A stretch of DNA of 64,000 nt from a virus. The translations under genes and the position numbers were made by a program. The stretch covers positions 23,619 through 87,618 of IMG/VR virus record IMGVR_UViG_3300010883_000010. One strand, given 5' to 3'. Positions within the stretch are counted from its first letter, which is position 1; every line of letters starts with the position of its first letter. A model generated the notes under the pieces. It worked only from the letters and a program-made list of their open reading frames with translations, was not told where the DNA came from and searched no databases. Below, one piece after another: positions 9,067-49,138 of the stretch.

Positions 9067-9702
9067 ATGTTAGTTAAAAGACTCATAGAATTAAAAAATA
9101 TTTATAAAGGAAAAAAGATTATAGTATGTGGATGTGGTAAATCACTAAACACGTTCTATGACTCACCTGAGTTTGCTAAGATTGCGAATAACAACAATGT
9201 AATAACAATAGGTGTGAACGACGTTCCTCGACTATTTGATCCAACACATTTAGTTATAACAGATCACACAACTAGGTTCAACAAAAATAGAATAGATCTA
9301 ATAAATAATTGTAGAAGTAAAAGTGTATTAACTTGTGTTAAAGGATGGCAACATCCAAAACTAGTATATTTTGAATTAGGAAAAAGAGGAGGACTTACAT
9401 TAGATGATTATTCTAGAGTAGACCACCACCTTAATTCTCCATACGCTGCAATAAACATAGCATATAAACTTGGAGCTTCTAAAATAGGTATGGTTGGAGT
9501 AGATTTTATAGACGGTCACTTTTATAGTCCCAAAGACGGGCCTCATAATTTAACTAGAAAACATCTTCCTTCAATTAACTTGGCTTATAAAAAAATATAC
9601 CTTCAATTAAAAAATAGAAAGGTTGATTTATATAATTTAAGTGACATAAGTAAAATAGACGCTATTCCGTACCTAAGTATTAAAAAATTTATAGAAATAT
9701 AG
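9067..9702 (+). CDS. Sialyltransferase-like/DUF115-type sugar-modifying protein
   Basis: First gene of the sugar cassette, 211 residues. It opens with a Rossmann-like IIVCGCGKSLNTF (about 18-30) and ends with SPYAAINIAYKLGASKIGMVGVDF (about 124-147), the arrangement seen in Cst-type GT42 sialyltransferases and in DUF115 proteins, where the first motif binds the nucleotide sugar and the second is the conserved core strand with an aspartate. It lies 62 bases from divergent dnaJ and 6 bases before the CMP-sugar synthetase gene. With CMP-sugar and nonulosonate synthases in the cluster, a sialyltransferase-type role is attractive but unproven. Confidence 0.55.
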   Translation: MLVKRLIELKNIYKGKKIIVCGCGKSLNTFYDSPEFAKIANNNNVITIGVNDVPRLFDPTHLVITDHTTRFNKNRIDLINNCRSKSVLTCVKGWQHPKLVYFELGKRGGLTLDDYSRVDHHLNSPYAAINIAYKLGASKIGMVGVDFIDGHFYSPKDGPHNLTRKHLPSINLAYKKIYLQLKNRKVDLYNLSDISKIDAIPYLSIKKFIEI

Positions 9703-12875: not shown

Positions 12876-13634
12876 ATGCATAAAACTGTTAATTTACATT
12901 GGTATAAAAAAGATTATAATTTTGGAGATATGTTAAATCCATATTTAATACCTAAGTTATTTAATATTAAAGTAAATTGGATAACCCCTGGGTCTAATAC
13001 TCCTCATATATTTTCTATAGGTTCAATACTTCAAAAGGCCAATAATTCAACTGCAGTATGGGGATCCGGCTTTATAAGTAATAATAGTCGTATTTCAAAT
13101 CCTTCTAAGATATTCGCAGTTAGGGGACCTCTCACATATGCTAGACTAATTAATGCAGGTATACCCACTCCTAAAATATTTGGAGATCCTGCCTTACTTT
13201 TGCCCAATGTATATTCTCCACAATTTAATAAAAAGTGGAAAATAGGAATAATTCCGCATTATGTTGACAAAAAATCAAATGTTATTAACATGTGTTCTAA
13301 AATAAAAGGAGTCAAAATAATAGACGTTCAAGAAAAAAGTATAGAATCGATTATCAACGATATTCTTGCATGCGAAATAATTTTATCAAGTAGTTTGCAC
13401 GGTCTCATTGTCGCAGATGCTTATGATATTCCTAATATATGGATAAAAATATCAAATAAGTTAATCGGAGGAAACTTTAAATTTAATGACTATTTTAAGT
13501 CAGTTAGTCGAAATATTCGCGAACCTATTATATTTACAACTAAGTCAAATATTTTTGATATAGTAAAAAACTATTCACTAGAAAAAATTATTTTTAATTC
13601 TCAACCTCTACTAAAATCTAATCCCTTTATATGA
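12876..13634 (+). CDS. Polysaccharide pyruvyl transferase family protein, copy 2
   Basis: A tandem paralogue of the preceding gene, 252 residues. It keeps the same ordered blocks: DYNFGDMLNPYL, GSILQKANNSTAVWGSGF, FAVRGPLTYARL, FGDPALLLP and LSSSLHGLIVADAYDIP. Divergence between the copies is high, so they may act on different acceptors or positions. The stop overlaps the next start by 4 bases. Confidence 0.85.
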   Translation: MHKTVNLHWYKKDYNFGDMLNPYLIPKLFNIKVNWITPGSNTPHIFSIGSILQKANNSTAVWGSGFISNNSRISNPSKIFAVRGPLTYARLINAGIPTPKIFGDPALLLPNVYSPQFNKKWKIGIIPHYVDKKSNVINMCSKIKGVKIIDVQEKSIESIINDILACEIILSSSLHGLIVADAYDIPNIWIKISNKLIGGNFKFNDYFKSVSRNIREPIIFTTKSNIFDIVKNYSLEKIIFNSQPLLKSNPFI

Positions 13635-14461
13635 AATTAGGAGTATCATATACAGTATTTGATGGGATAGAGCTCTTAGAGCATTCTATTAAACAAATAA
13701 GAAATCACGTTGATTTTATACACGTAGCATATCAAAAATATTCTTGGTTTAATAAGGCAATGTCAATTGAAGATTTTAATACATTAAATCGATTAAAAAC
13801 AATAGGGTTAATCGACTCCTTAGAATGTTTTACAGATTTTAAAATAATAAAACTAAATACGAGTAATATTCAAATATCTAAAAAATATGAGACCGAAAAA
13901 AGACAATTTGGAATGAATGCTTGTTTAAAAACAGGATGCACCCACTTTATATCTATGGACGTTGATGAATTTTATATAGCAGATGAATTTAAAAAAGCAA
14001 AGAATATAATAGTAGAAAATAATATATCCCAATCTTCTTGTTCTTTTATAAATTATGTAAAATTACCAATATACACAAGAGGAATAGATGGATCTACCGT
14101 GCCATTCATATGCAAAGTAAATAATTATTCAAATATGTCAAAATACTTTTTTACGAAATGTGATCCAACCAGAGGAATAACTGATAATATACGAGGAGCC
14201 AAGAAAAAATTTACTAAAGATATAATATTAATGCATCACATGGAGACAGTTAGAAAAGATTTGACTAAAAAATATGAGTCAACAACGAGAGCAATATTTA
14301 ATAGGAGTAGAACCAAAGATTTAGTAAAAGGTATAAAATCAGTAAATAAACAAACAAATATGTTTAGTTTTGATAAAATAATATTTCCAGGAACACCTCC
14401 TGTAAAACTTAAAGAAACCGATAATATATTTAATATACCTTATAAAATATGGGACCTGTAA
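13631..14461 (+). CDS. GT2-like glycosyltransferase
   Basis: 276 residues. The opening KLGVSYTVFDGIELLEHSIKQI and the metal-binding HFISMDVDEFYIADEF (DxD near residue 113) are typical of glycosyltransferase family 2/92-type proteins; the late LMHHMETVRKDL supplies a candidate histidine. There is no membrane segment, so it should act on a cytosolic acceptor. It overlaps both neighbours (4 bases before, 13 bases after). The donor is unknown. Confidence 0.7.
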   Translation: MKLGVSYTVFDGIELLEHSIKQIRNHVDFIHVAYQKYSWFNKAMSIEDFNTLNRLKTIGLIDSLECFTDFKIIKLNTSNIQISKKYETEKRQFGMNACLKTGCTHFISMDVDEFYIADEFKKAKNIIVENNISQSSCSFINYVKLPIYTRGIDGSTVPFICKVNNYSNMSKYFFTKCDPTRGITDNIRGAKKKFTKDIILMHHMETVRKDLTKKYESTTRAIFNRSRTKDLVKGIKSVNKQTNMFSFDKIIFPGTPPVKLKETDNIFNIPYKIWDL

Positions 14462-15312
14462 AGATAGTAGCAGAAATAGGAATAAATTATGCATACGGTA
14501 AAGATAAGTTTAAGTTTTTAGATAATGCTAAAAAATTAATAGACGCCGCTGCTTTGGCTGGATGTAATTGGGTAAAATTCCAAAAAAGAAATCCAGATAT
14601 ATGTGTAAGTGAAGATCAAAAATTAAAACCAAAGAAAGTTCCGTGGAGAAAAGAAGAAACCACATATCTACAATATAAAAAAGATATAGAATTTGGAGTA
14701 AATGACTACGCTGAAATTGATGTATATTGCAATAAAAAAGGAATTGGATGGTTTGTATCGGTATGGGATAAGTCATCCGTCGATTTTATAGTAGATAACG
14801 ATTATTCTAATTGGGGGTCATTCATAATGAAAATTCCATCAGCTTTAATAAACGATATTGATTTATGTAAGTATGCAAGTGAAAAGTCTGACCTTTTAAT
14901 TATATCAACTGGAATGAGTACGGAAAAAGAGATTATAACATGTATAAAAGCATGTGATCCCGACGTAATCATGCATACCAATTCAACATACCCAGCAAAA
15001 GTAGATGAGCTTAATCTTGAATATATACATTGGCTTAAAGATAAACACTATGGAAAAGAAATAGGGTACTCTGGTCATGAGTTTGGCTTAGTTACAACAT
15101 GGGCAGCAGTTGCCATGGGAGCATCGTGGATTGAAAGACATATTACTCTTGAAAGAACACTATGGGGATCTGATCAGATTGCATCGGTAGAGCTAGGCGG
15201 GCTTATTAAGCTTGTTAAAGGAATACGGGATATTGAAAAATCTTTTAAAGGATACGGAGAAAGAGAAGTTTTAGGATCAGAATTAGAAAAATTGAAAACC
15301 TTAAGAAAATGA
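14449..15312 (+). CDS. neuB: Nonulosonate (NeuB-type) synthase
   Basis: Condenses a six-carbon sugar with phosphoenolpyruvate to make an acidic nine-carbon sugar. The TIM-barrel NeuB signatures are clear: VAEIGINYAYGKDKFKFL at the start, AGCNWVKFQKRNPD (about 38-51), LLIISTGMSTEKEI, IMHTNSTYPAK and IGYSGHEFGL (about 205-214), then IERHITLERTLWGSDQIASV (about 228-247). It is 287 residues and lacks the C-terminal SAF antifreeze-like domain of bacterial NeuB (usual length about 340), so it may rely on the barrel alone, as in several KDN- and phage-type homologues. It overlaps the neighbours by 13 and 4 bases. Confidence 0.88.
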   Translation: MGPVKIVAEIGINYAYGKDKFKFLDNAKKLIDAAALAGCNWVKFQKRNPDICVSEDQKLKPKKVPWRKEETTYLQYKKDIEFGVNDYAEIDVYCNKKGIGWFVSVWDKSSVDFIVDNDYSNWGSFIMKIPSALINDIDLCKYASEKSDLLIISTGMSTEKEIITCIKACDPDVIMHTNSTYPAKVDELNLEYIHWLKDKHYGKEIGYSGHEFGLVTTWAAVAMGASWIERHITLERTLWGSDQIASVELGGLIKLVKGIRDIEKSFKGYGEREVLGSELEKLKTLRK

Positions 15313-15599
15313 TTACACCAAAACTAATACTTCAATTTATTGAAGGAAATCTTAAAATGCTTGGAGATAAGTTTGGAACCCTTTCGGAACATACTAAGGA
15401 ACAAGTTTTATATAGATCTCAAGTATGTAAAAATGATTGTATAGAAAGGGGATATTGCGTTCAATGTGGATGCTCAATTCCTGGTAAATTATATGTTACT
15501 AAATCATGTAATAAAGGAAGTAGATTCCCGGACTTAATGGATGCTGAATCTTGGGAAACATATAAAAAGGATAATAATATAAAAATAGAAGGAAAATGA
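15309..15599 (+). CDS. Small cysteine-rich protein, probable zinc binder
   Basis: 96 residues with a cysteine cluster CKNDCIERGYCVQCGCSIP (residues about 40-58) and a further cysteine at KSCNKGSRFPD. Such a pattern suggests zinc binding. It overlaps the NeuB-type gene by 4 bases and the HAD gene by 4 bases, so it is co-translated with the sugar pathway. Similar small proteins appear next to capsule genes in phage genomes, but I do not recognise a named family. Confidence 0.55.
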   Translation: MITPKLILQFIEGNLKMLGDKFGTLSEHTKEQVLYRSQVCKNDCIERGYCVQCGCSIPGKLYVTKSCNKGSRFPDLMDAESWETYKKDNNIKIEGK

Positions 15600-15895
15600 T
15601 TTACTATATAGATATAGATGATACTATATGTAGATCAGGGTCACCTAGCGATTACTCTACGGCCATTCCAATAGATAACGCAATTAAAAAAGTTAATGCA
15701 CTATATGATGCCGGACATGAAATAGTTTTTTGGACGGCGCGTGGATCTGGAACTGGAGTAGACTGGAGGGAAGTCACCAAAAATCAATTAGAAAAATGGG
15801 GAGTAAAATATCATAAACTTCGCCTCGGAAAACCAATATATGATTTCTTTATAGATGATAAAAACATAAACGCAAGAGACTGGTTAAATGAATAG
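15596..15895 (+). CDS. HAD-superfamily phosphatase, capless
   Basis: 99-residue HAD fold. Motif I is YIDIDDTIC (catalytic Asp5 and Asp7 by analogy), motif II is VFWTARGSG (about 42-50), motif III includes the lysine around GKPIYDFF, and motif IV is FFIDDKN (about 86-92). It is a C0-type (capless) enzyme similar to those in capsule loci. Placed between the NeuB-type synthase and a sialyltransferase-like gene, it could remove the phosphate from a nonulosonate-9-phosphate; this is inference. It overlaps both neighbours. Confidence 0.8.
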   Translation: MIYYIDIDDTICRSGSPSDYSTAIPIDNAIKKVNALYDAGHEIVFWTARGSGTGVDWREVTKNQLEKWGVKYHKLRLGKPIYDFFIDDKNINARDWLNE

Positions 15896-16493
15896 ATATA
15901 AAAATAAAGTATTAATTCTTGGAAACGGTCCTGATATTAATAATATAGAATTTAATCGCCTTCCAAAAATAATAAAAACAGCAGGAGTAAATAGAATATG
16001 GCTAAAACACTTTCCTAAATACTATTTCTACCATGATGCTGACATAATGAAGGAAATAGATCGTGATATAGTTCTCAGATCTCAACTCATAGCTAAAAGT
16101 GTATGCTATACTAGCGATTGGTTGCATACGCAAACATCTAATATTCCAAATTATTTAAAAGTAATTAATAGATCTAATCCTTCTATATTTGTAGATTCGG
16201 TAAACACGTTTATGAGAATTTTAATAAATGATAATGTATTTAACACGAATGATACTATATTTTATATAGCAGGAGTTCCACTAAATTGGACAAACCCGAG
16301 TCACTTTTGGAAAGATTTAAAATACCATTCTCTAAATAAAAAAGATAAAATATGGTATGATGCTAGATTTACTAGAATGCTTTCTAATTTTAAAAATTTA
16401 AAAAAATTAGGATATAATATGGTTTCAGTTACTCCTAATTCTAAGTTAAATAAAATAATGAGATATGAAGGTATAGGTAATTTATATACTTAA
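15888..16493 (+). CDS. Sialyltransferase-like (GT42/Cst-type) candidate
   Basis: 201 residues. The N-terminus KVLILGNGPDINNIEFNRLP (about 7-26) closely follows the nucleotide-sugar motif of Campylobacter Cst-II (GNGPSLKxIDYxRLP in the family), the best hint of family in this protein. The remainder contains MRILINDNVFNTNDTIFYIAG and an IWYDARFTRML stretch but no obvious second signature. It is the last gene of the cassette and meets the minus-strand gene that follows in a convergent arrangement. Confidence 0.5.
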   Translation: MNRYKNKVLILGNGPDINNIEFNRLPKIIKTAGVNRIWLKHFPKYYFYHDADIMKEIDRDIVLRSQLIAKSVCYTSDWLHTQTSNIPNYLKVINRSNPSIFVDSVNTFMRILINDNVFNTNDTIFYIAGVPLNWTNPSHFWKDLKYHSLNKKDKIWYDARFTRMLSNFKNLKKLGYNMVSVTPNSKLNKIMRYEGIGNLYT

Positions 16494-16517
16494 AGTATCA
16501 ACCTTAAGATATTAATT

Positions 16518-18512
16518 CTATTCTTCATAAGTACATGAACCATCATCAATTGTTGCTAAAGGATCAAAATTTAATGCTGTTGGGTCTGTACAACCGAATA
16601 CGGCTTCTAAGAAGTGATCATCAGATTTAGATCTTGCTGCTATTGTCTTATCACTTCCGTCTTCAACGAATTCCTTATCCTGTGGACTTGCCTTCTTAAT
16701 AAATTCCAATTCTACCTCTTCAACTATTAAATCATCTCTATCATCTAGTTGAGCTTTTGATTTTTTCGCTTCCCCAGATTCAATAACGAACTCTTCTAAT
16801 ACTTTTTCTTCACCTAATACCTCTTCTACTTTTATAAGCTTTACATCTTGCTCTTCGTTTACATAAATAGCTTCTTCTGTTCTAACTGCACCTTCTATTT
16901 CAGCATCTTTCACAACTGGTTCTTCTGCAGGAAAAACTTTATCTAATACTATCTTATCTAGATCAGAATTAACTGCTGCATCTGCAGCAGATGGCAGAGC
17001 AGGTAGTTTTTTTGGATCCCCTAATTCTAATTTGTCAGAAGGAGGAAGTTTTATACTAGCTATATCATTAGCTGCCATATAAGCTTCTAATGTTACAATT
17101 TCTGAAATATATGCTTGTTTTTCTTTATGCCTTTCGTCTGCTTCTTCACCAATTAAACTAGTTATAGTATATACATGTTTACCAGATAATACTTTATGTT
17201 CTTGAGCATCCGAATTCGGCCAGTTATATCTATATAAAATGTCGATTCCTTCACCTACTAATTTTCCTACTTTTGAAGTAGTCCATACATTAGCTCCAAT
17301 TGTAAACGATTTAGCATATATTCTAGCTTGATGTGCAAATAATTGGATATTTCCATCCGATTCAGAAGCAAGTATATCTCCAAAATAATGAACAGTCGCC
17401 TCAAATATTCCATATCCAGAATAAGATTCCTCTATTACATTTTCTTGGCTTGGGTCAAGTTGAGCAATCAGACTTCTACCTTCAGTAAAATCATCCCTCA
17501 TATGATTTACTCCTAAATAATTATTTAGCCATTCTAAATCACCTGATTGATCCTCATCTCCATCAACTAAGAATGTAATAAGATTTAGTTTTTTCTTTTT
17601 TGCAACCATATTAATTGATTGCAATGCTACAGTTTGATGATTTATATTAAGAGCTTGGTTACCTGAAACATATGATATTTCTTGTTTACATTGCACAAAC
17701 ACCGTACTTGCTGCCTCCTTCATCGCGTCAGTAATAGTAATAGCTTCAGAAATAGATCCAATTACTGCACTTGGAAGTAATTCATCGTGATTAATAATTT
17801 TAGTAGCGATGTCATTCCAACACTCATTTTTTCTAGTTTTATAATGACCATCAAAGGCAGCATCTTCAGCATTACCTTCAACGTCATTTCCAGCAAGCAC
17901 ATTAGCTGAAATATCTGCCAATATTTCAAGGCTATTAGCCATAGCTTGTATTGTTAATGCACCATCCTCATTCTTAATAATGGCATCATTAATATAATCA
18001 ATTTCCAGCAATCTTTCTTTAACGTCATCATTAACAGGTAAAAGATCAAATTCATTTACCATTTTTTCTAATAACAATGTTATAGCTCCCTCTTTTGTTT
18101 TACCAGAATCCATAATTATCGATATAACAGTTGAAACGGGACTAACTATAAGAGTTCCTATGGGTGCTTCTAATTCTCCAGTATATTCAAAACCAGTAAA
18201 TGTATCTATTCCTCCAGTCACTTTTAATTTTCCTATTGGCAAAGACTTAACTCTAAATTTTCCAAGTGTATTGGTAGTATATGTTTCTCCAGACGCAATA
18301 TCTGTAACTGTTGCTCCATGCAGAGGACCATCTAATGCTAATCCACCAATTCCACCGGCCGCGGATCCACCTACAGATCCAACTTTGGAACCACTTTCTT
18401 TTTTAGCAGCTTCAACCAGTCTCCATCTTGCCTGCTCTGCCATTTGTGCATTTTCCCAGTCTTCACGTAGTCTTCTTTCCTCAGGTGATTCGTCTGTTCT
18501 CCATAATATCAT
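16518..18512 (-). CDS. Large virion-type protein with Bacteroidetes surface-protein motif
   Basis: 664 residues. An N-terminal helical, charged segment (ESPEERRLREDWENAQ) leads into a Gly/Ala stretch and a carboxypeptidase-regulatory-like beta sandwich (HGATVTDIASGETYTTNTLG, about 65-84). A middle region has a Ca-type DGDEDQSGDL loop, and the acidic C-terminal region ends in VFGCTDPTALNFDPLATIDD (about 640-659) followed by a GSCTYEE terminus, the GCTDPTA repeat unit found in Bacteroidetes secreted proteins. There is no signal peptide. It is preceded by a late-promoter motif at 18521-18541. I infer a virion or internal protein of unknown function; a receptor-binding role is possible. Confidence 0.65.
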   Translation of the reverse strand: MILWRTDESPEERRLREDWENAQMAEQARWRLVEAAKKESGSKVGSVGGSAAGGIGGLALDGPLHGATVTDIASGETYTTNTLGKFRVKSLPIGKLKVTGGIDTFTGFEYTGELEAPIGTLIVSPVSTVISIIMDSGKTKEGAITLLLEKMVNEFDLLPVNDDVKERLLEIDYINDAIIKNEDGALTIQAMANSLEILADISANVLAGNDVEGNAEDAAFDGHYKTRKNECWNDIATKIINHDELLPSAVIGSISEAITITDAMKEAASTVFVQCKQEISYVSGNQALNINHQTVALQSINMVAKKKKLNLITFLVDGDEDQSGDLEWLNNYLGVNHMRDDFTEGRSLIAQLDPSQENVIEESYSGYGIFEATVHYFGDILASESDGNIQLFAHQARIYAKSFTIGANVWTTSKVGKLVGEGIDILYRYNWPNSDAQEHKVLSGKHVYTITSLIGEEADERHKEKQAYISEIVTLEAYMAANDIASIKLPPSDKLELGDPKKLPALPSAADAAVNSDLDKIVLDKVFPAEEPVVKDAEIEGAVRTEEAIYVNEEQDVKLIKVEEVLGEEKVLEEFVIESGEAKKSKAQLDDRDDLIVEEVELEFIKKASPQDKEFVEDGSDKTIAARSKSDDHFLEAVFGCTDPTALNFDPLATIDDGSCTYEE

Positions 18513-22254: not shown

Positions 22255-22788
22255 GTGAAAAATCGTGTAAATAAATTTAAAGATTATGAGCATCTTAATG
22301 AGGATGATGGTAAACAAACTCCTCTGCGAGGATATACCGCATCTGTTATGATATCAAGAATAGAGCAATTAATGGAAGTTATGCCAGACCGAATTAAGTT
22401 TGGAGTTCCGGCGGATATTAAAGGATATTCTACGTCATATAGAGATGCAAATGGTGCTATTCAAAAAATTATGGACATAAGCCATTACTATTCTGGAAAA
22501 GGAGAAGATGTTTCTTTCTACTGTTGGAATGTTAGCTACTCAGGAAGCTGGGATGCAACCAAAGGACTAAGAGCTAAAATTGATGAATTTGGCGGATTTG
22601 GTAGAGAACAAAATATGAATCTAAAAAAAGTAGTTGAATATTTTGGAGATAATACTGAGGATGCTGATAACGTGAGAAGTCTATCAATATCTATAGATAC
22701 TATGTCAATTAGAAAAGCAACAAATAAACAATCAGAAGCAGAAGAGACTCCACCATCTAGAGAACCTATTGAAGATAGTGAAGTTTAA
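22255..22788 (+). CDS. Late hypothetical protein with capsid-targeting-like N-terminus
   Basis: 177 residues, GTG start supported by the late motif at 22228. The N-terminus VNKFKDYEHLNEDDGKQ fits the shared FxxYxxxxE pattern with a glutamate cut position. The body (SVMISRIEQLMEVMPDRIKF and later FYCWNVSYSGSWDATKG) looks globular, and the C-terminus is acidic. No family is recognised. I infer a virion-packaged protein. Confidence 0.6.
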   Translation: MKNRVNKFKDYEHLNEDDGKQTPLRGYTASVMISRIEQLMEVMPDRIKFGVPADIKGYSTSYRDANGAIQKIMDISHYYSGKGEDVSFYCWNVSYSGSWDATKGLRAKIDEFGGFGREQNMNLKKVVEYFGDNTEDADNVRSLSISIDTMSIRKATNKQSEAEETPPSREPIEDSEV

Positions 22789-42633: not shown

Positions 42634-44352
42634 ATGGCAGGATTCGGAGACAATATTCAAGGTAACAGCACAACAACGGCTCTTTCTAATCTAAGTAAAT
42701 TTGGATCTAGATATGACGACTTACTTCTTAAAAATTCAAAAGCGATAGGGTTCGTTGAAGGACAACTCTCATCTAGATCAACCACTTTGAATAGTGGAAA
42801 TGATCTTTTAAAGTTCTCAATGGCAATTGCGGATACCACATCTCAATTGAGAACGAAGGCAATCGCCTTCTTTCAGCTTGATTATGCAGTAAAGAGAGAA
42901 AGACTTAGAGATATTGCGTCTAACGGAGAAATCGAATTTGTCTTAGATACTATTGCAGATGATATGATAGTATATGATGAAGAAAATAGGTGGTGTAGCC
43001 CAAATGATATAACAGGTAAAATACTATATAAAGGATCCAATAAAAAAGATAGACTTAATTATCAAGAAAATATAGTAAATAAGTATACTAATAATTTTGA
43101 AAATATTTACAATACTTGGGGATTTGGCGAAGGAATTGCAGCTTGGCAATATGCTTTTCAATTTTTAATTGAAGGTCATTTATCCTTTGAAATCATATAT
43201 GATAATCCAGAAAAACCTATGAAGGTTATTGGATTTAAGGAGCTCGACCCTGCTTCAATTGCGCCTCAACTAACTAAAGACGCCAAGGGAAAATTATATC
43301 TACAGTGGATGCAATATGATAATGGAAGTGGAAATACACGTACATTAACAGATTCACAAGTAATATACATATCTTATGCTAATCACTTCAAAACAAAAAG
43401 AATTAGTTTTGTTGAAAGAATGATTAGATCATTTAATCTACTTAGAATAATAGAGCATAGTAAAGTTATATGGCACGTAATGAATGCTCCTATTAGATTA
43501 CAAACAAGTGTTCCAACTGGATCTAAGAGCTTTCAAAAAGCACAGGAGGATGTTAAAGAATTCTTAAATCTATTAAAAGAAGATGTATTCTTTAATGGAG
43601 ATACTGGTGAGTTAACCGTTGATGGAAAACCAAATATGCTATTCTATAAAAACTACGTTACTCCAATAAACGATCAACAGCAGCAGGTTAAAATAGAGCC
43701 ACTATCTTATCCCGGACCTAATTTATCTAGCTCTGAGTTACTTGGATATTTTACTAAAAAATTAAAAATGGATTCTAAAATTCCTTACTCTAGATGGGAA
43801 GGACAATCCGGTATGGGAGCATTTACTTTAAACGCGGAAGGAATAACTAGAGAAGAAGTTAGATATCAAAAATTTATAAAAAGATTAAGATCGGCTTATT
43901 CTGAACTAATGGTTAAGCCTTGGTTTTTACAAATGTGTTTGGATTTTCCAGCACTTAAAAATGATTTTAAATTTAAAAATGCGATCGGTATAAACTACCA
44001 CAATGATAACGTATTTGAAGAAATGAAAGAAAAAGAGTTAGAAGCTAAAAGAATAGCGTCATTTACTGCTAAGAAAGGCATAATGAAAGATGATGGAACT
44101 CCATTCTTCTCAACTGATTATTTAATTAGAACTGAATTGAGGATGACCGAATCTGAAATAAATGCAAACGAAGAATGGTTTGAGATGAAAGAGCAAGCGA
44201 TGGATACACCTCCTGGAGATATGGGAGCAGCAGCCGGAGGAGGAGACATGGGAGGAGGAGCAGGAGCAGCTGGAGCCGGAGGAGCAGAACCAGCAGCCGG
44301 AGGAGCAGAAACAATAGATGGCGGAGAAACTGGAGCCGACGGTTCATTATAA
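42634..44352 (+). CDS. 20: Portal protein (gp20-like)
   Basis: 572 residues. DYAVKRERLRDIASNGEIEF near residue 85, WHVMNAPIRLQTSVP, and PYSRWEGQSGMGAFTLNAEG (about 386-405) followed by ITREEVRYQKFIKRLR are the conserved gp20 portal blocks. The portal is the 12-mer through which DNA enters and leaves. The last 50 residues are a Gly/Ala-rich low-complexity tail (GAAAGGGDMGGGAGAAG), not known from T4 gp20. Confidence 0.92.
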   Translation: MAGFGDNIQGNSTTTALSNLSKFGSRYDDLLLKNSKAIGFVEGQLSSRSTTLNSGNDLLKFSMAIADTTSQLRTKAIAFFQLDYAVKRERLRDIASNGEIEFVLDTIADDMIVYDEENRWCSPNDITGKILYKGSNKKDRLNYQENIVNKYTNNFENIYNTWGFGEGIAAWQYAFQFLIEGHLSFEIIYDNPEKPMKVIGFKELDPASIAPQLTKDAKGKLYLQWMQYDNGSGNTRTLTDSQVIYISYANHFKTKRISFVERMIRSFNLLRIIEHSKVIWHVMNAPIRLQTSVPTGSKSFQKAQEDVKEFLNLLKEDVFFNGDTGELTVDGKPNMLFYKNYVTPINDQQQQVKIEPLSYPGPNLSSSELLGYFTKKLKMDSKIPYSRWEGQSGMGAFTLNAEGITREEVRYQKFIKRLRSAYSELMVKPWFLQMCLDFPALKNDFKFKNAIGINYHNDNVFEEMKEKELEAKRIASFTAKKGIMKDDGTPFFSTDYLIRTELRMTESEINANEEWFEMKEQAMDTPPGDMGAAAGGGDMGGGAGAAGAGGAEPAAGGAETIDGGETGADGSL

Positions 44353-44358
44353 TATAAA

Positions 44359-44730
44359 ATGGAAGTATCAATTATCATATCAATATTATTAATAGGAGTT
44401 GTTTGCTTTTGGGCTGGGCATAAGATCGGGTTGAATGCTCAAAGTAAAGCAGTAAAATCTGTCCTAGATTCTTGGAAAGCAAATTATACGTTTACCTCAA
44501 TTAATCATAAGGATAACTTATCAAATCATATTATGAATTCTGAATATGATGAGTGGGACTCAACTTCAACCTTCTCTAAAGATAATTACTTTTATAGTAT
44601 ATGTAAAGATTCTAGAAAAACTATTGAAGATAAGATGAATAAGGCATTAGAGCTAGAGGACTATGAAAAGGCTGCAAAGTACAGAGATATTTTAAAGAAT
44701 ATTAAAAAATCTGGCGGTTGTTCTAAGTAG
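44359..44730 (+). CDS. Membrane-anchored protein with UVR-type motif
   Basis: 123 residues. One N-terminal hydrophobic segment (SIIISILLIGVVCFWAG) would anchor it in the inner membrane with the rest in the cytoplasm. The C-terminal KMNKALELEDYEKAAKYRDI is a UVR (UvrB/UvrC-type) helical hairpin used in protein contacts. It lies 6 bases after the portal gene. Function unknown. Confidence 0.65.
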   Translation: MEVSIIISILLIGVVCFWAGHKIGLNAQSKAVKSVLDSWKANYTFTSINHKDNLSNHIMNSEYDEWDSTSTFSKDNYFYSICKDSRKTIEDKMNKALELEDYEKAAKYRDILKNIKKSGGCSK

Positions 44731-44756: not shown

Positions 44757-44768
44757 TATAAATAAATA
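44757..44768 (+). promoter_or_regulatory. Late promoter with exact TATAAATA element
   Basis: TATAAATAAATA, containing the exact T4 late element. Transcription would begin near 44772, so the mRNA of the T9SS cargo gene would carry about 140 bases of leader. Confidence 0.55.
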
Positions 44769-44914: not shown

Positions 44915-47900
44915 ATGAAAAAACTATTCACATTAGTATTACTTATACAGTTATTATTAGTCAATAACTCAATTTCCCAATGCACACATACATTTACAGG
45001 ATACGATTCTTATGGAGATGGGTGGAATGGAGCAAGTGTAACAGTTATGGTTAACGCTCAGCCAGTTGGGATGATTGCAATGGCTACTGGCGCACAAGAA
45101 TCTCTTACATTTCAAGCAAACGATGGAGACTTAATTAAATTAGATTGGATTTCTGGAACATATGATTATGAAATATCTTGGGATTGCCTAGATGGCGGAA
45201 ATAATACTATTGCGATGGGAGTATATGGAACCGTTGGAGTCGGAACTGGAGCTTGTCCCGCACCTACGCCCTGTGCTACATTAGATTATGTTCAAGACTT
45301 TGAAAGTGGAACTACACTACTCGCTGCTACAACTGGCGCGGGGTCAAGTGTTACGATCGATGGCACATCCGCTAATTCTAGTGTTTATGGATTACATATG
45401 CAAGGAAATACTTCGTCCGGTTGGGGATCATCTTATGCCACAGGATTAGCCGCATTTACAAATTCTACTAGCCACATTGCTTCTGTTAGCAGAGAGATAT
45501 GTGCTCCTTTACAACCTACTGTTAAGATGACTTTTAATAAAATGCAGACATATACTTATAATGTAAATTATTCATGGTTCAGAGTTACAGTTAACGGTAC
45601 CCCTATACCAGATATAAATGGCAATACTTATTTTAATGGTTCTAGTAATATTTGGGAATCAATGGAATATAATTTATCAGCATATACAGGAGCAGCTTTT
45701 ACTTTAGCTTTTGAAACATGTAACAAATATTATACAGGTTATACAACCACTGGAATGGGCGGGGACGCATCTTATATAGATGATATTCTTATTGCTCAGT
45801 CATCAAGCCTATCACCTCCGACTGCCCCTGGATCGATATCAGGAAATAGTTATCCAAACTCCGGAGAAGTTATAACATATAGTATATCACCAATACAAGG
45901 AGCAGATTATTATACATGGACTACTCCTATAGGATGGTCAATAACTTATGGCCAAACGACAACATCCATTACTGTGGCTACAAATAATAACTCAGGAACA
46001 TTATCAGTAACTGCAACTAATCAAGCCGGCACCTCTTCGGCTACGACATTAGCGGTGACATCAGCAGTTTTAGTAACATCATATCCTTATGAAACAGCTT
46101 TCGAAAATGAAACAAATGATGTTACTACAGGCTCCGCTACAGGCTTTACCTTTACAGAAAATGGTTGGAGAAACGTTAGTGGTGATGATGGGGATTGGAG
46201 AACAGATGCAGGTGGAACGGGAAGTACTAATTCCGGTCCTGGTGGTGGAGCATCAAGTGGTGTATCCGATCATTATCCAGGAACATCATCTGGTAAATAT
46301 ATTTATACGGAAGCGTCAACACCTAATTATCCCTCTAAAGAATTTCATTTATGGTCACCACCCTTTAATTTAACTTCTCTAACGGCGCCGACATTGACAT
46401 TTTGGTATAGTATGTATAGTGTAAGCGGTGCATCCCTAGCCTTACAATATTCTCTTGATAACGGAGCTAATTGGGCAAATAATATTGCCTTCATGTGTAC
46501 TACTACATTTCCAATCGCGGTTATTTATCAAGATATGGGAACTAATTGGAGACAAGGATTTGTCGATCTATCTGCGTTACAGTCCAATTCGAACATCATG
46601 TTTAGATTTATAGTTACTACAGGTACTAGTTGGGATGGCGATATTTGTTTAGATGATATCAAATTAGTAGATGCTGCTAACACATCAGTGGATGTAGGAG
46701 AAAATATTACATTAGGTTCTAGTGCATATGATGGTGCTTATGGATTAGTATTAAATGGAACATCATCCCAAATAATTAATCCAGAAGGATATAGTATTTC
46801 AAATATAACAATTAATAATTCAGATGGAGTAACGGTAGATGGGAGCGATTTAAAGATAGATGGTATTCTTACATTAACTGATGGAGTAATAACTACCGGA
46901 TCTAATAAAGTAATAACTACTGCTGCTCCAACTGGATCTATATCAGGCGGTAGTGCAACATCTTTCATAAATGGAACACTGAGAAGATATATTGCTACTA
47001 GTTCAGCAACTTATATATTCCCTATAGGTAATGGAACTGGAACTTCAAACTACCAAAGAGCTGATTTAATAAATGGAAACTTAGTTGGAATAAGCTATAT
47101 AACCGCTTCAACTACTGATATGGCTGGAGGTAATATGACTCAATTAAGTCCAGGCCTTACTCAAAATACTTCGGTATTAGCTGAGATCTTCGATAAGAGT
47201 TGGACATTAACTCCTAATGCACAACCGTCAGGCGGAACATATGGCGTGAATCTATATCTTAATGGAGTTGGTGGAGGAACAATAGCAGATGATAACTTTA
47301 CAATTGTTAAACGACCAACTGGTTCTACAACATGGAATGATTGGGATTCATTTGAATCAACCACAACTATACCGGTTGGGGGAGATCCGGGAAGAACTGT
47401 TGCTGGTGGATATATGCAAAAATCAGGATTTACATCATTTAGTGACTTTGGCGGCGGCGGATCCGGCGGAGGACCCTTACCGATAGTTTTAATTAGTTGG
47501 GATGCTGAAATAGTTGGAGAATCTACTTCATTAACTTGGTCGGTAGCTTCACAGGTAAACAATGATTTTTATTCAATACACAGAAGTTTAGATTGTGAAC
47601 ATTGGGAAGAGGTTGCTAAAATACCTGGAGCAGGTAATGCTAATTCATTAATGAACTATCATATTTTCGATGAGAATCCTTATATAGGACAATCTTATTA
47701 CAGATTAATGCAAACCGATTATGATGGTAAAACTGAGAAATTTAGTTTATTGGGAGTATTTTACGACAAACCAATTATACTAAGTATCAATCCAAATCCA
47801 GTTGAAGAGGTATTAACATTATACTTATCTGAAACGCTAAAAGGAGTAACTCACGTTACTATCTACAATACAAGAGGACAACAACTTTACACCAAAGGTT

Positions 47901-48016
47901 TTATCGGAAATTGGAAAGTAATTGAATTAGATGTGTCAAACTATAAAAAAGGTTATTATCTACTAGACGTAGATCACAACCACCGCAAGGGAACATTAAA
48001 ATTTATAAAAGAATAA
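44915..48016 (+). CDS. Phage-encoded secreted surface protein with T9SS C-terminal sorting domain
   Basis: 1033 residues and unlike any T4 protein. The N-terminus is a signal peptide (KKLFTLVLLIQLLLVNNSIS, cut probably before QC). Then come a DSYGDGWNG beta domain (about 30-90), MAM-like sandwich domains (DYVQDFESGTT near 125 and SYPYETAFENETND near 390), an Ig/PKD-like domain (PTAPGSISGNSYPNSGEVIT), a Gly-rich hinge, a PIVLISWDAEIVGESTSLTW region usual before sorting domains, and a final type A T9SS domain (ILSINPNPVEEVLTLYLSET to the end). It should pass the Sec system and then the host T9SS to the cell surface. It is acquired host-type DNA, flanked by portal and gp25 genes. Confidence 0.85.
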   Translation: MKKLFTLVLLIQLLLVNNSISQCTHTFTGYDSYGDGWNGASVTVMVNAQPVGMIAMATGAQESLTFQANDGDLIKLDWISGTYDYEISWDCLDGGNNTIAMGVYGTVGVGTGACPAPTPCATLDYVQDFESGTTLLAATTGAGSSVTIDGTSANSSVYGLHMQGNTSSGWGSSYATGLAAFTNSTSHIASVSREICAPLQPTVKMTFNKMQTYTYNVNYSWFRVTVNGTPIPDINGNTYFNGSSNIWESMEYNLSAYTGAAFTLAFETCNKYYTGYTTTGMGGDASYIDDILIAQSSSLSPPTAPGSISGNSYPNSGEVITYSISPIQGADYYTWTTPIGWSITYGQTTTSITVATNNNSGTLSVTATNQAGTSSATTLAVTSAVLVTSYPYETAFENETNDVTTGSATGFTFTENGWRNVSGDDGDWRTDAGGTGSTNSGPGGGASSGVSDHYPGTSSGKYIYTEASTPNYPSKEFHLWSPPFNLTSLTAPTLTFWYSMYSVSGASLALQYSLDNGANWANNIAFMCTTTFPIAVIYQDMGTNWRQGFVDLSALQSNSNIMFRFIVTTGTSWDGDICLDDIKLVDAANTSVDVGENITLGSSAYDGAYGLVLNGTSSQIINPEGYSISNITINNSDGVTVDGSDLKIDGILTLTDGVITTGSNKVITTAAPTGSISGGSATSFINGTLRRYIATSSATYIFPIGNGTGTSNYQRADLINGNLVGISYITASTTDMAGGNMTQLSPGLTQNTSVLAEIFDKSWTLTPNAQPSGGTYGVNLYLNGVGGGTIADDNFTIVKRPTGSTTWNDWDSFESTTTIPVGGDPGRTVAGGYMQKSGFTSFSDFGGGGSGGGPLPIVLISWDAEIVGESTSLTWSVASQVNNDFYSIHRSLDCEHWEEVAKIPGAGNANSLMNYHIFDENPYIGQSYYRLMQTDYDGKTEKFSLLGVFYDKPIILSINPNPVEEVLTLYLSETLKGVTHVTIYNTRGQQLYTKGFIGNWKVIELDVSNYKKGYYLLDVDHNHRKGTLKFIKE

Positions 48017-48023
48017 TATATAT

Positions 48024-48272
48024 ATGGATAATTTAAAAAATGCGTTATATGCTGGTCTAGGACTGGCTAAACAAACAGAAGATCAGGTAAAAGAAAAATT
48101 TGATTTACTAGTTGCAAAAGGAAAAAGAGTTGATACAGAAGGTAAACATTTAATTTCTGATTTATTTGAAGCTTTAACCGAAGTCAAGAAAAAACATGAT
48201 GAGAAGTTTGTAGAAACTTTAAATGATAGTATTGATAAAGTAGAGGAATTACTTCAAACATTAAAAAAATAA
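48024..48272 (+). CDS. Phasin-like small protein
   Basis: 82 residues. KNALYAGLGLAKQTEDQVKE and KGKRVDTEGKHLISDLFEAL match the short phasin-family proteins common in Bacteroidetes, named for storage-granule association though often of unknown role. Amphipathic helices predominate. It is 8 bases after the T9SS cargo gene and probably came with it. Confidence 0.65.
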   Translation: MDNLKNALYAGLGLAKQTEDQVKEKFDLLVAKGKRVDTEGKHLISDLFEALTEVKKKHDEKFVETLNDSIDKVEELLQTLKK

Positions 48273-48288
48273 AATAAAATACATAACG

Positions 48289-48762
48289 ATGCAGAATCTT
48301 CCTAGCTACACTAACCTATTAATTAGATTAGTTTTAAGCGCATCTGGAATATTTTCAATGTTTATGCTTCCAATTATATTTGGACGCATGGACAGTTATA
48401 GTAGCTATTATATTTGTTCTCCTATATTATTTACATCATTATTTAGTATACTTGCAGTCGGGCTGTATATACATAGTAATATACAATGGAGGTATCCAGC
48501 AATACTATTAATAATATTGTCTATATTTAATATGCATGACGCCCCATTGCTTCACTACGGCGCCGCCATTCTATTTTTTATAAGCTCAACATATTCTATG
48601 TGGAATGATAAGAGAGTAGGTGGATTTGGAAAAATTTCTGCTATATTATATGGATTATTCTTTATAGACTTATTAATATTTGAATTAATTCAAGTTATTA
48701 TAATATGCTCATTTCATCTAATATACATATTTAAGATGATTAAAATTAAAGCTAAATCTTGA
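48289..48762 (+). CDS. Multi-pass membrane protein
   Basis: 157 residues with about five hydrophobic segments (LIRLVLSASGIFSMFMLPII, ILFTSLFSILAVGLYI, AILLIILSIFN, AAILFFISSTYS, LLIFELIQVIIICSFHLIYI). It fits the family of small four- to five-helix membrane proteins found in Bacteroidetes. Third gene of the moron-like group; it ends 2 bases from a convergent gene. Possibly exclusion-related, but that is a guess. Confidence 0.6.
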   Translation: MQNLPSYTNLLIRLVLSASGIFSMFMLPIIFGRMDSYSSYYICSPILFTSLFSILAVGLYIHSNIQWRYPAILLIILSIFNMHDAPLLHYGAAILFFISSTYSMWNDKRVGGFGKISAILYGLFFIDLLIFELIQVIIICSFHLIYIFKMIKIKAKS

Positions 48763-48763
48763 A

Positions 48764-49138
48764 TTATTTATATAATATAGAATAAGGGCTCTTATCTCCA
48801 TCTACTATAATATTTAAAACATATAGTTTATTTCCATTTGAATCCTTAGTATAATATGGGGATACACTGATATTTCTTCTTTTTCCTTCAGATACGAATT
48901 GATTCATTTGGCTATTTGCCTCATCTGCTAATTGGAATGGATTAAGATCGAAATCAAATAGGTATTTTTCTACTTGTAATCCAAAGCTAGGCTCACCTAA
49001 AACTTCTCCTTTATTAGTTAGTAGTGTCATTCTAACTTGGGTAATACATGCTTCCAAATCATCATACACTTCTACTTGATCCTTTCTAAATTTAGGGTCT
49101 TCTTCTGATCTTGTATAAAAATCTCTAACGTTTGCCAT
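48764..49138 (-). CDS. 25: Baseplate wedge protein (gp25-like)
   Basis: 124 residues, the GPW/gp25 family. DDLEACITQVRMTLLTNKGE (about 26-45) then VLGEPSFGLQVEKYLFDF is the conserved lysozyme-like-fold core that is enzymatically silent and binds the sheath initiator. It heads a neck-to-virion block on the minus strand. Confidence 0.85.
   Translation of the reverse strand: MANVRDFYTRSEEDPKFRKDQVEVYDDLEACITQVRMTLLTNKGEVLGEPSFGLQVEKYLFDFDLNPFQLADEANSQMNQFVSEGKRRNISVSPYYTKDSNGNKLYVLNIIVDGDKSPYSILYK

Follow-up and report, generated by a model that had tools for sequence, protein, structure and literature searches.

The gene at positions 44915..48016 (+ strand) of the window, a stretch of 64,000 nucleotides from a viral record of 87.6 kb (87,618 bases), encodes a protein of 1033 residues that is predicted, from the open reading frame list, profile matches and relatives, to be a cargo of the type IX secretion system (T9SS). 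The best explanation as a whole, to which we assign a probability of roughly 0.6, is that the gene is a phage moron whose product is exported by the T9SS and covers sites on the cell surface.

All elements named in the original prediction, i.e. a signal peptide pattern, DSYGDGWNG, PKD, MAM and a type A sorting tail, are present in this single frame, which starts with ATG; all coordinates given for them refer to the + strand. The N-terminus is rich in lysine and continues with a hydrophobic stretch and SIS in front of QC, an arrangement typical of Sec signal peptides. By sequence, residues 1–22 (44915..44980), MKKLFTLVLLIQLLLVNNSIS, would be removed in front of QC at a Q-rule cleavage site. The N-terminal domain that follows (residues 23–115; 44981..45259) carries DSYGDGWNG at residues 31–39. 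It has no Pfam match, and its counterparts in Flavobacteriales chromosomes show 26–41% identity. A beta-rich conserved region (residues 116–298; 45260..45808), equally without Pfam match, is 74–81% identical in the phage relatives. Pfam identified PKD_6 in residues 301–381 (45815..46057; E 4.1e-19) and MAM in residues 417–585 (46163..46669; E 1.6e-14; PDB 5oj2 MAM). The tail is preceded by a domain with a predicted Fn3-like fold (residues 855–955; 47477..47779) that contains YYRLMQTDYDG and marks the boundary of ectodomain exchange in the relatives.

The predicted T9SS type A C-terminal sorting domain comprises residues 958–1033 (47786..48013), with PNP, a loop glycine (TRGQ) and a C-terminal strand with lysine (KFIKE). 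The loop glycine and C-terminal lysine motifs used for comparison were those described in PMC11285876, where it is also reported that sorting tails can be species-specific, a point that speaks against the favoured explanation. The loop glycine (Gly140 of the alignment) is invariant in 81 sequences, and the cargo protein ends in KFIKE. Searched with the TIGR04183 and MAM profiles to which the original prediction had pointed, the protein matched both. TIGR04183 (type A; NCBIfam) covers residues 959–1033 with E 1.8e-6 and 27.8 bits against a cut-off of 23, and Por_Secre_tail (PF18962; Pfam) covers residues 958–1031 with E 2.9e-9 and 37.5 bits against a cut-off of 27. This frame gave the single TIGR04183 match in the 87.6-kb record. 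A search with PHROG profiles returned no family for the 1033-residue protein.

The signal peptides of Bacteroidetes follow a Q-rule (PMC5837995, PMC10653852). In 53 of 55 non-redundant viral proteins with such a C-terminus, Gln occurs just after the hydrophobic stretch, as compared with 45% in control windows, and by eye this Gln stands directly behind a small residue in nearly all of the 55. The signal peptide and the sorting domain scoring above both cut-offs support the earlier proposal of export via the Sec and T9SS routes of Bacteroidota, and we regard export by the host T9SS as quite probable. Surface display as opposed to release, adhesion, a block of superinfection and an effect on gliding, which were proposed along with it, are conjectural. 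The last 185 residues, modelled by AlphaFold together with 81 relatives, gave a mean pLDDT of 93 and two domains consisting of beta strands throughout. Matches of this Fn3-like and tail model in the PDB include the T9SS protein PorU (6za2), many Fn3/Ig-like proteins and T5 tail proteins with Fn3 domains. Because Fn3/Ig-like proteins are so abundant among these matches, the fold search by itself adds little weight. The TM-scores are modest since both domains were searched together, and the tail may have the compact seven-strand Ig-like fold of type A cargo. The AlphaFold model of the full-length protein reached a pLDDT of 33.6 and was unusable, so that the fold of the ectodomain rests on profile matches.

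According to the favoured explanation, the gene would be a moron located among the late genes of a T4-like phage that infects a T9SS-bearing host, most likely a relative of the flavobacteria. The protein made during infection would pass through Sec and be trimmed by signal peptidase I, exposing Gln, and the type A tail would hand it to the host T9SS. Export is likely to be the purpose of the gene, and the protein may then be fixed on the outside of the infected cell or released. The MAM, PKD and DSYGDGWNG modules might bind sugars or proteins there. The benefit would be that surface sites are covered or occupied, both during infection and on debris, and that rivals as well as the phage's own progeny are kept from adsorbing to a doomed cell. 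The transport steps from Sec to T9SS follow from sequence and known pathways. What the computation shows is the gene with its domains and export signals, purifying selection on it and its spread between phages; the host, the export itself, the location of the mature protein, its binding and the benefit are what we infer. Receptor covering in particular is a tentative assignment, and extracellular action after release is about as likely. The model for the former is Llp of phage T5, a receptor-blocking lipoprotein at the host outer membrane that stops adsorption. No sequence relation is claimed, and Llp differs in being a small lipoprotein with one known receptor and no T9SS. In F. johnsoniae, proteins with type A tails end up statically anchored or released (PMC12618676), and for a flavobacterium it was suggested that gliding adhesins put on the surface by the T9SS serve as phage receptors (PMC13288928). 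The latter makes competition at that surface plausible, yet is not evidence for it. The position in the late region argues against superinfection exclusion, for which little time would be left before lysis unless the gene has a promoter of its own.

A gap of 184 bases lies upstream of the gene, and promoter-like sites occur in about the number expected by chance. A candidate T4 late promoter upstream (TATAAATA at 44757) was rejected, as the window contains 16 such sites versus 24 by chance. The site search near the gene revealed no terminator on its strand. The record contains genes for a T4-type portal, head closure, head-tail adaptor, major head protein, maturation protease, topoisomerase and DNA polymerase. 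A tyrosine integrase was found neither here nor in seven related records (eight records in all, partly fragments). Upstream lie the T4-type portal (572 residues; 42634..44352, + strand; phrog_213, 5.9e-59) and, between it and the cargo gene, a 123-residue protein with an N-terminal hydrophobic stretch and a UVR motif (44359..44730, + strand). Downstream follow genes for a phasin-like protein of 82 residues (48024..48272, + strand) and a membrane protein of 157 residues (48289..48762, + strand), and then a gp25-like baseplate wedge protein (48764..49138, - strand; phrog_261). The original placement between portal and gp25 genes is firm on the portal side, where the strand is the same; gp25 is matched weakly (2.4e-4) and encoded on the opposite strand. 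The phasin-like and membrane genes (48024-48762) recur close together, each with 57% identity, in the viral contig G003 (118228-119671), and the two phages are otherwise different.

Full-length relatives were found in the viral contigs G002 (69%) and G003 (67%), with 67–76% identity overall, whereas L012 and L013 contain fragments (60% identity) that are truncated at the contig ends. G002, G003 and G001, a 118.6-kb contig that contains the record described here, have few other genes in common, mostly at 28–60% identity; the cargo gene is by far the longest of these and among the most conserved. T4-type portals are encoded in G001, G003, G056, G059 and G060, and G003 also has a T4-type head protein and a terminase. 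The PF03237 search detected terminases in 9 of 46 records; absence in the remaining ones says little as they are fragments, some of them without any hallmark gene tested. The gene setting is different in L012 and L013, where the exported-protein gene follows a gene of ~3,100–3,200 codons. In both contigs a small gene separates the giant gene (L012:78-9620, L013:223-9552) from the exported-protein gene, and the giant gene of L012 includes a polynucleotide-kinase-like stretch. L004 encodes a second paralogue of 1200 residues (13223-16825) immediately behind the relative of the window gene; it combines two MAM domains with PKD_6 and a type A tail.

A host gene picked up recently by chance and without function in the phage, or host DNA joined during assembly, would also bring such modules into a viral record, and single modules are indeed common in Flavobacteriales: they occur in 41 of 46 genomes of this order, to which Vicingus belongs, with 25–49% identity, but combined differently. 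A chimeric assembly with host DNA, which the original prediction had considered as a source of error, is contradicted by G001, 99.992% identical across all 87,618 bases without gaps. This match makes an assembly chimera very unlikely, bearing in mind that both contigs may stem from one population. The third-position GC of the gene (0.210) equals that of the phage (mean 0.211) nearly exactly. Full-length relatives come from viral contigs only; none was detected in bacteria, either in a first genome scan or in the 46 genomes of the Vicingus order. Among annotated phage isolates, the search for relatives yielded just four large uncultured phages, matched weakly at the C-terminus. In a tree of the C-terminal 185 residues (a quick search, the bacterial rows being the best 80 loci from a limited scan), nine viral sequences including the cargo protein form one clade devoid of bacteria (SH-aLRT 98). 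By a simple counting method dN/dS is 0.14–0.20 for the whole gene and ~0.09–0.13 for the tail, the opposite of the ratio of ~1 that goes with lack of function, although these ratios are rough because dS is near or beyond saturation. The signal peptide is the sole stretch with relaxed constraint (0.6–0.9). The gene is under purifying selection and moves between phages, and a functionless host gene appears very improbable.

Alternatively, the protein might be released and act outside the cell, where it would tie lysate, debris or virions to particles or sugars, or it might join exported phage enzymes that open the surroundings for the next infection. MAM, PKD and CUB modules are frequent in extracellular proteins, release is one of the outcomes documented for type A tails (PMC12618676), and two related phages encode M43 metalloproteases that end in a tail of this type. 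The cargo protein, however, contains no catalytic domain, and release of this kind is to be seen as a possibility on the doubtful side. The gene might instead encode a part of the virion, a fibre or decoration protein that attaches to the surface of hosts or particles through its Fn3/Ig-like modules, the supposed T9SS tail being a mere Ig-like fold. The portal gene next to it, the giant genes in front of other relatives and the T5 tail proteins among the fold matches fit this idea. It is rendered improbable by the Q-rule signal peptides present in nearly all members and by the fact that the match above cut-off is to the sorting domain itself, with no PHROG family recognised.

Scanning with the C-terminal region yielded 79 viral loci. 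The Fn3-like domain is followed in these either by the long type A tail or by a short one of ~50 residues, and the sorting tail is common (60–82% identity) to proteins with unrelated ectodomains. The tails of L034 and L038 are 77–82% identical to that of G002, with ectodomain similarity undetectable. L038 in turn shares its ectodomain (70% identity) with L049, whose tail is of the short type. In L038, positions 825–2870 represent an insert whose flanks adjoin in G002 at 22679/22697, an empty site among the relatives that is distinct from the window's own. The second half of the insert, containing the sorting tail and a gene of 78 residues, is 87% identical to G002's own copy at 14064-14924. 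These comparisons indicate that tails are swapped between ectodomains and that the gene comes and goes at one site. The 78-residue gene (L022:14625-14861, - strand; L038:2574-2810, - strand) has one hydrophobic stretch, looks holin-like by eye and accompanies the tail block in G002, L037 and L038.

The short tail (50–57 residues; N..GQ.V....G...I.Y.DG...K) stands behind the same Fn3-like domain in ~45 viral proteins (loci L049, L053, L060-L075 and L085-L111). The members tested were detected by neither TIGR04183 nor PF18962, and the tail is possibly a T9SS signal for which no model exists. Comparison of its profile with the long tail by hhalign gave a probability of 15% and an unconvincing alignment. 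That the short tail is an invention of phages was rejected, as it is present in 64 of 150 Flavobacteriales genomes. The M43 (pappalysin-type) metalloproteases, in two related phage contigs (L022:3303-4517, + strand; L030:12791-14068, - strand), are 47% identical and possess a signal peptide and a type A tail. Phages of aquatic flavobacteria might share a kit for display or release, composed of a phage-bred T9SS tail, recombining binding ectodomains and co-exported M43 proteases and moved between unrelated phages, by which each phage would equip the outside of its host with a protein set of its own; we put this forward at somewhat less than even odds.

The use of the T9SS by a phage had been thought to represent a new kind of host manipulation. 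This has to be withdrawn, as Bellas et al. (2020; PMC7468147) found three genes for type A cargo of the T9SS in 'Cryophage' and suggested that the phage hijacks host secretion and excludes superinfecting phages, and a 2019 study pointed out that crAss-like phages have T9SS sorting domains (PMC6949934). The name 'Secretion system C-terminal sorting domain' is already attached to viral proteins in public databases. The 'Cryophage' cargos resemble ours in their phage-encoded type A sorting domains and vary among 'Cryophage' variants, but comprise endoglucanase, GH39 and PA14 in one phage type (PMC7468147), whereas MAM/PKD/DSYGDGWNG proteins occur in several unrelated phages and exchange tails and ectodomains. 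The crAss-like proteins similarly lie close to head genes of Bacteroidetes phages, but these are gut phages with BACON repeats, and the parts of that report available to us contain no analysis of family, selection or swapping for sorting-domain proteins (PMC6949934). RemA-type adhesins of Flavobacterium johnsoniae likewise carry binding modules together with a signal peptide and a type A tail, and are anchored or released (PMC12618676); they are chromosomal and part of gliding, and the searches for a full-length bacterial counterpart of the phage protein gave nothing. Porphyromonas gingivalis phages encode proteins with Bacteroidetes-type (Q-rule) signal peptides that are thought to alter the host surface, but a T9SS sorting domain is not mentioned (PMC10367356). 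Neither this MAM/PKD family and its distribution nor the swapping between tails and ectodomains or the phage M43 proteases turned up in the literature searched, which covered few subscription papers. What is new is this family, its spread over several unrelated phages, the modular exchange and M43 proteases with such a tail; the concept of a phage T9SS cargo is not.

If export is real, phages would modify the exterior of the infected cell with exchangeable parts, by way of a secretion system that only Bacteroidota and their close relatives possess. Host manipulation by this route would be general and testable, in a group that ranks among the most abundant aquatic bacteria, and the sorting tail together with a Q-rule signal peptide would provide a sequence handle for such proteins in viromes. 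Elsewhere in the window, positions 9067-9702 show a weak match (5.2e-6) to phrog_4603, a family of phage alpha-2,3-sialyltransferases, and may represent a further gene that alters the surface. A ribonucleotide reductase (L016:5278-7137, L040:6593-8452, L061:7046-8908) is ~82% identical between the window's phage and two contigs that share few other tested genes with it; in these two contigs the exported-protein gene is located nearby.
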